From Enorma massiliensis phI (GTDB lineage Bacteria; Actinomycetota; Coriobacteriia; Coriobacteriales; Coriobacteriaceae), in the NCBI RefSeq assembly GCF_000311845.1, contig NZ_HE978574.1, forward strand, positions 885,089-939,310: a stretch of DNA of 54,222 nucleotides. The letters are read 5' to 3'. The notes under the pieces were generated by a model. That model saw only the letters and a list, made by a program, of their open reading frames with translations, searched no databases and was not told the DNA's origin. Position 1 is the first letter of the stretch. Every line of letters begins with the position of its first letter. Positions 52,242-52,587 of this stretch are shown piece after piece. A program made the translations under genes and the position numbers.

Positions 52242-52287
52242 CGAGTATACCCTGCGGCGAACGGGGGCGCCGTTTGGGGTATACTCG
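52242..52287. promoter_or_regulatory. Inverted TATACT-containing dyad
   Basis: CGAGTATACCC (52242-52252) and GGGTATACTCG (52277-52287) are exact reverse complements 24 bases apart. Each carries a TATACT box, on opposite strands. It may be a promoter for the small RNA candidate that follows, or a protein-binding site. Confidence 0.45.
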
Positions 52288-52290
52288 TGT

Positions 52291-52384
52291 CGAGCAGAAG
52301 GTTTTAAGCCCTCCTGTGGATAACTTTCTTGTGGGTGATGCCCACGCTGAACAGCCGTCTCCACCAAGGCGGCTGTTCCCTTTT
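52291..52384 (+). ncRNA. Candidate small RNA converging on the minipeptide gene
   Basis: A transcript from the TATACT box at 52280-52285 to the terminator at 52349-52384 would be about 95 bases and untranslated. It contains CCCTCC, which could pair with the GGAGGG ribosome site of the 26-residue peptide gene, and a GTGGGTGATGCCCAC hairpin that competes with a larger outer dyad. No convincing -35 box. Existence and role are inferred. Confidence 0.35.
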
Positions 52385-52400
52385 GCGTCAAGCATCACCC
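52333..52400. terminator. Nested terminator dyad between the M20 gene and the minipeptide gene
   Basis: Inner stem GAACAGCCG (52349-52357)/CGGCTGTTC (52370-52378) is followed by CCTTTT on the plus strand. An outer stem GGGTGATGC (52333-52341)/GCATCACCC (52392-52400) encloses it and would also form in the convergent minus-strand transcript. Confidence 0.75.
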
Positions 52401-52410
52401 TAGGCTCGGA

Positions 52411-52491
52411 TTAGACGAGCATCTCGTAGGCCAATAAGACCAGAGCAAGAAGCACTGCCGCCGAAAGCAGCAGCTGGGTGAGCTTCTGCAT
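52411..52491 (-). CDS. 26-residue single-helix membrane peptide behind a LexA-box promoter
   Basis: A very short gene: MQKLTQLL, then an uninterrupted hydrophobic helix of about 18 residues (Leu, Ala, Val), ending AYEMLV and TAA. It has a textbook GGAGGG ribosome site five bases before the ATG (52497-52502), an extended -10 box and a LexA-type box overlapping the -35, so it is very likely expressed. Size and shape recall SOS-induced or type I toxin peptides such as TisB, Fst or Ldr, but I see no sequence match and make no identity claim; small membrane regulators of the KdpF or CydX kind are alternatives without support here. The downstream dyad would end the mRNA. Confidence 0.7.
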   Translation of the reverse strand: MQKLTQLLLSAAVLLALVLLAYEMLV

Positions 52492-52548
52492 GGGATCCCT
52501 CCATCTACCCCGCTGGACTCGGAGGGCACCGCCCGCTCGCTTAGTTAA

Positions 52549-52587
52549 ATAATATCACCTTTTTAGCAGAAAAAGAACATATGTTCG
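52549..52587 (-). promoter_or_regulatory. SOS (LexA) box and extended -10 promoter of the minipeptide gene
   Basis: Read on the minus strand, CGAACATATGTTCT (52587-52574) matches the Gram-positive LexA consensus CGAAC-N4-GTTCG at all but the last base. It overlaps a weak -35 (TTCTTT, 52577-52572), which is 17 bases from TG-A-TATTAT (52557-52549), an extended -10. LexA bound here would block transcription until DNA damage. Confidence 0.7.

Follow-up and report, generated by a model that had tools for sequence, protein, structure and literature searches.

In the genome of Enorma massiliensis phI, a stretch of 54,222 nucleotides (contig NZ_HE978574.1, positions 885,089 to 939,310; hereafter the window) carries a two-gene module of about 350 bp, extending from position 52587 to approximately 52236, that is read here as a putative LexA-regulated type I toxin-antitoxin system, with an estimated probability of about 0.83. 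A hydrophobic peptide of 26 residues would be the toxin and a convergent antisense RNA its antitoxin. This reading is supported by the two-gene layout, the LexA box, frame-specific selection on the peptide, covariation in the hairpin shared by both RNAs, the complementarity between them, and the one-sided loss of the toxin among copies of the module. LexA would bind the box, both RNAs would be transcribed, translation of the toxin would be blocked by the antisense RNA, and the peptide would be toxic.

The features of the module, in window coordinates, are as follows.

52587-52574, minus strand: LexA (SOS) box CGAACATATGTTCT, which overlaps the -35 position of the toxin promoter
52557-52549, minus strand: extended -10 TG-A-TATTAT of the toxin promoter (TATTAT itself at 52554-52549)
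52542-52492, minus strand: 5' leader of the toxin mRNA, CGAGCGGGCGGTGCCCTCCGAGTCC..., with a predicted start at ~52542
52526-52521, minus strand: leader CCCUCC, partner of the Shine-Dalgarno (SD) sequence in a sequestering hairpin (window fold)
52502-52497, minus strand: SD sequence GGAGGG, 5 nt 5' of the toxin ATG
52491-52411, minus strand: toxin open reading frame (ORF) MQKLTQLLLSAAVLLALVLLAYEMLV, 26 aa, ATG start, one hydrophobic helix
52400-52333, minus strand: large hairpin in the 3' untranslated region (UTR) of the toxin mRNA (z -4.2)
52349-52378, plus strand: inner stem of the large 3' UTR hairpin, being the terminator of the antisense RNA (terminator scan)
~52292-52385, plus strand: antisense RNA, predicted antitoxin, ~94 nt, convergent into the toxin mRNA 3' UTR
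52309-52314, plus strand: CCCUCC in the 5' hairpin of the antisense RNA, complementary to the toxin SD (on the toxin strand, a direct repeat of GGAGGG)
52280-52285, plus strand: TATACT, the -10 of the antisense promoter (across 30 copies, AGTATACCC hardly varies)
52287-52236, minus strand: distal hairpin CGAGTATACCC...GGGTATACTCG followed by U5, spanning the antisense promoter (-26.5 kcal/mol, z -5.45)

A preliminary description of this DNA had reported a 26-residue ORF, a strong ribosome site, an extended -10 and a LexA box at the -35 position, all of which lie where it placed them. The span that it gave for the whole element (52411-52587) holds for the toxin half, and the element continues to ~52236. 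As the convergent antisense RNA gene had been overlooked, a toxin-antitoxin pair was described as a compact minigene.

LexA box and predicted toxin promoter

The box CGAACATATGTTCT, termed nearly perfect in the preliminary description, has one mismatch to the LexA consensus. All 41 full copies of the module (those with box, leader and intact ORF) carried a box with at most three mismatches 34-53 bp ahead of the leader, compared to 10 of 839 control windows (75 bp, taken from these loci). Within the box, AAC (positions 2-4) and GT (positions 9-10) were invariant in the 41 full copies, and its outer flanks were near random (~0-0.4 bit per column). The distance between box and leader was bimodal in these copies, mostly 40-43 or 49-53 bp with a peak at 52, and as the two classes lie about one helical turn apart, this suggests two toxin promoter architectures among them. 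In the toxin -10, the TA...T columns were invariant across 30 aligned copies.

The motif CGAAC-N4-GTTC is rare across the window's genome, where it precedes lexA (CGAACAGTTGTTC), whose product matches Pfam LexA_DNA_bind and Peptidase_S24, and occurs again before the divergent gene encoding a LysM/transmembrane protein. Based on these two positions, it is very probably the LexA box of this organism, and the box at the predicted toxin promoter matches the one that this genome has before lexA, as expected of a member of the LexA regulon. The lexA gene and its divergent neighbour, a protein of the YneA/ChiZ kind, have one box each (G000:C1:1176100-1176139). A tandem pair of LexA boxes, separated by 15 bp, also precedes the gene of an unannotated 119-aa protein (G000:C2:182762-182789), and further boxes were found upstream of a DUF1848 protein gene and of an apparent D-Ala-D-Ala ligase gene.

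Selection on the predicted toxin peptide

Across 42 distinct peptides, the maximum mean hydropathy over 15 residues ranged from 2.3 to 3.7, and an N-terminus KLTxLLLAAA was conserved among the peptide relatives. The peptide is under purifying selection (ratio of nonsynonymous to synonymous rates, dN/dS, 0.31; p = 1.6e-9; 12 independent pairs), compared to ratios of nonsynonymous to synonymous proportions (pN/pS) of 1.1 and 1.9 in the two other frames, and differences within the ORF numbered 44, 23 and 73 at codon positions 1, 2 and 3, respectively. The small hydrophobic peptide ORF under selection that is expected of a type I toxin-antitoxin system is present.

Searches of Pfam, NCBIfam and PHROGs with the 42 peptides returned no credible match. 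Pfam matches at E ≤ 1 included none to TisB, Fst, Ldr, Hok or Ibs, a weak test for peptides of 26 residues, and the Fst/Ldr signature, a PXXXG motif with a W before a charged C-terminal tail, was absent from all 42. The proposal of an SOS-controlled membrane peptide with TisB-like logic and an unrelated sequence, undescribed in Coriobacteriia, is supported by conservation, selection and the lack of family matches. Two ways in which the preliminary description could have failed were checked: the frame is conserved among relatives, as the contrast between 0.31 in frame and 1.1 and 1.9 out of frame indicates, and the half-sites of the box do not vary under a fixed peptide, its core being invariant.

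Predicted convergent antisense RNA and shared hairpin

The antisense gene of the window scored 134.7 bits with covariance model R1. It is a conserved predicted gene complementary to the toxin mRNA, with a -10, a 5' hairpin and an intrinsic terminator, and its promoter has no SOS box. In 34 of the 41 full copies, the antisense RNA shows 6-9 nt of perfect complementarity to the SD region.

The 3' UTR hairpin of the toxin mRNA, the inner stem of which serves both strands, showed eight pairs changed on both sides. Its covariation score (0.222) was not reached in any of 500 shuffles (0.148), and was at most 0.098 when the alignment was slid. In the leader, core columns were at least 90% identical among 30 copies, and the CCCUCC/SD hairpin had a standard pair in 29-30 of the 30 at each of its six positions; as this pairing is nearly invariant, no covariation test is possible for it.

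The distal hairpin and its U5 (52287-52236) are the likely, predicted end of the toxin mRNA. If the mRNA does end there, the antisense RNA would be complementary along its whole length to the 3' UTR. The distal-hairpin repeat was seen by eye in many copies, and since RNAalifold gave no consensus fold for it, the evidence for this hairpin comes from the window copy and from visual inspection. The antisense -10 lies within a perfect inverted repeat of 11 bp (window 52242-52287), the other arm of which could also be a regulator site.

No credible family match for the element was found in Rfam, and the covariance model built here represents a family not included in Rfam release 15.

Copies and genomic spread

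The peptide search detected a second copy in the window's genome and others in the family. The aligned surroundings of the copies revealed a conserved unit far larger than the peptide, comprising in order the LexA box, the -10, the leader core, the peptide and the large hairpin, then the CCCTCC hairpin and TATACT promoter of the opposite strand. A covariance model was built from the distal part of the element and used for the copy census. Matches to the antisense model occurred in 30 of the 67 family genomes, with up to seven per genome. A second family of the order also has copies, in two of its genera; sampling 398 genomes from the class and 396 from the phylum revealed none outside those two families. 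Several copy-bearing relatives are Collinsella by name in the species collection.

Overall, 67 copies were recovered from these two families, in 44 contexts: 41 full copies, four with an intact ORF and no box, and 22 without an intact toxin (among them G007:C4:293081, where box and leader are present and the ORF start is deleted). Judged by flanking genes, the full copies occupy about 28 genomic contexts, and the unit of box, leader, ORF, hairpin and antisense promoter reappears whole at unrelated sites. Three of the copies belong to the window's genome, of which the third lies at G000:C1:1340668. Synteny links the window copy to one in G002, beside a transaldolase gene; in G003 and G001, no counterpart was found next to this gene.

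At G065:C10:30800-36650 and at G007:C4:288000-294500, three or more copies, full as well as orphan, are clustered within a few kb. An orphan antisense copy in G002:C27 (L123 3087-3234) lies, by eye, just upstream of an apparent Phd/YefM-type antitoxin gene and near an apparent gene for an AlbA_2-domain protein; the surroundings of the transaldolase gene could be a hotspot for cargo of this type.

Scattered copies of this kind, the better conservation of leader and hairpin than of the ORF, and the lack of any matching protein or RNA family would also suit a dispersed repeat or mobile element acting as a dual-function or structural RNA, in which promoter, leader and hairpins matter and the ORF is incidental. 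This is very improbable, as the purifying selection is specific to the peptide frame, the SOS box is kept over about 28 contexts, and no copy turned up when phage, plasmid and viral collections were searched by similarity and by pattern. The leader word occurred in two viral contigs, where it was taken as chance given the absence of an antisense match, and likewise in a Kiloniellaceae contig and an Actinomadura contig.

One-sided loss of the predicted toxin

Three syntenic comparisons showed deletion of the toxin or of its promoter with the antisense RNA retained. The locus in G307 matches the full copy of G168 at 89% on both sides and precisely lacks G168 1320-1514, which comprises box, promoter, leader and ORF up to the stop codon, while the antisense gene is kept. 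Relative to syntenic full copies, G027 has lost the toxin, and the second copy of G025 has lost box, promoter and leader. Conversely, no toxin was found without the antisense RNA: in an independent toxin-profile search, all 35 matches (E < 0.01) adjoin one. Toxin-less copies thus number 22 versus no antitoxin-less copy, a pattern predicted for a toxin with its antitoxin, although expected rather than strictly defining. The CAGGAGGG motif is kept in 20 of the 22. This one-sided decay is the strongest functional argument for the putative antitoxin role.

It also bears on whether the peptide could instead be a non-lethal division regulator of the SidA/YneA kind, induced by SOS, binding a membrane division protein and delaying septation, with the antisense RNA only sharpening the timing. 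The SOS box, the short single-helix peptide and the purifying selection suit such a regulator equally well, and the conserved KLTxLLLAAA could be its binding face. However, the window's genome already has an SOS protein of the YneA/ChiZ kind, the LysM/transmembrane product divergent from lexA, and an addictive module, rather than a housekeeping regulator, is the better fit both for the patchy occurrence in several copies (30 of the 67 family genomes, up to seven copies each) and for the loss of the toxin while the antisense RNA is kept. A division regulator is accordingly judged unlikely.

Several observations weigh against the toxin-antitoxin reading. The complement between antisense RNA and SD is short and invariant, showing no covariation, and the duplex energy of the 5' segment was no better than that of shuffled antisense sequences (mean z -0.5); as shuffles do as well, duplex energy was rejected as proof of antisense action. 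Neither the toxin nor the antisense promoter has a good -35 hexamer. Among the 22 toxin-less copies, only 10 kept the exact TATAC of the -10, so that many of them may be decaying too, and they might be retained as ordinary terminators.

Proposed mechanism and significance

In an undamaged cell, LexA would occupy the box and constitutive antisense RNA would mop up leaky toxin mRNA, pairing with its 3' UTR, probably from the shared hairpin, and blocking the toxin SD through the antisense CCCUCC; the mRNA leader would also hide its own SD behind the internal CCCUCC. Repression could act through this block of the SD or through cleavage of the mRNA. Upon DNA damage, LexA would be removed and toxin mRNA would come to outnumber the antisense RNA, allowing the 26-residue helix to enter the membrane and slow or stop growth.

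According to a 2025 paper, Proteobacteria, Firmicutes and Tenericutes were the only groups known to have type I systems before a first cyanobacterial case, which it reports (PMC12390103). No type I system in Actinobacteria was found in the open-licence literature, and priority is therefore not certain. If the proposed reading is true, a dispersed and selected family in relatives of Collinsella would add Actinomycetota to the phyla with type I systems, and would show SOS coupled with a membrane peptide by way of an antisense brake in a lineage that is unrelated and uses another RNA layout. The syntenic full and toxin-deleted loci offer ready natural experiments, and the module is a candidate mechanism for the tolerance of common gut bacteria to DNA-damaging drugs.

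Comparison with known systems

Judged by layout, the module resembles txpA/RatA of Bacillus subtilis, where the two RNAs overlap at their 3' ends. Both txpA/RatA and bsrG/SR4 of the same species are prophage-borne with longer toxins, and to our knowledge neither has a LexA box. By description, the predicted peptide recalls SidA of Caulobacter, a 29-aa SOS-induced inner-membrane division inhibitor, for which we know of no antisense RNA.

SOS-regulated type I systems are known from Escherichia coli in dinQ/AgrB, DinQ being a 27-aa inner-membrane peptide, and symE/SymR (PMC8309996). Both differ from the module in layout and sequence, and SymE is a cytosolic nuclease.

In its predicted regulation, the module resembles tisB/IstR-1 of E. 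coli, which shares a LexA promoter on the toxin only and a constitutive RNA antitoxin (predicted here), together with a hydrophobic peptide of 26-29 aa and a structured 5' UTR (PMC4147584, PMC8309996). LexA control, peptide and RNA antitoxin could even suggest a TisB family member or direct counterpart by homology, an idea that has next to nothing left in its favour: family search and layout contradict it. The 42 members had no TisB, Fst, Ldr, Hok or Ibs model among Pfam matches at E ≤ 1, the peptide is unrelated, and the phylum is different. The gene of IstR-1 diverges from that of the toxin, and its RNA binds a standby site located far upstream; neither element of that arrangement was found in the module, whose antisense RNA is convergent, overlaps the mRNA in its 3' UTR and carries an anti-SD motif, so that the predicted pairing is SD-proximal.

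That layout is instead of the par type. Like par/Fst-RNAII of Enterococcus pAD1, the module has convergent genes, a shared hairpin and terminator, a direct repeat complementary to the SD region and a leader stem that hides the SD (PMC7472228, PMC8167048), the pairings being predictions. It differs in that its antisense RNA is ~94 nt long and apparently lies inside the mRNA, and its peptides lack the PXXXG motif, conserved W and charged C-terminal tail of the Fst/Ldr superfamily, for which, as for par/Fst, SOS control is not mentioned in a review (PMC7472228). On balance, the module probably represents an undescribed type I family, the first in Actinomycetota, which combines LexA control of the TisB type with a convergent antisense RNA of the par type. 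Orphan antisense RNAs, left behind by toxin deletion, may silence the remaining copies of this family in trans, since SD and hairpin pairing sites are common to the copies.
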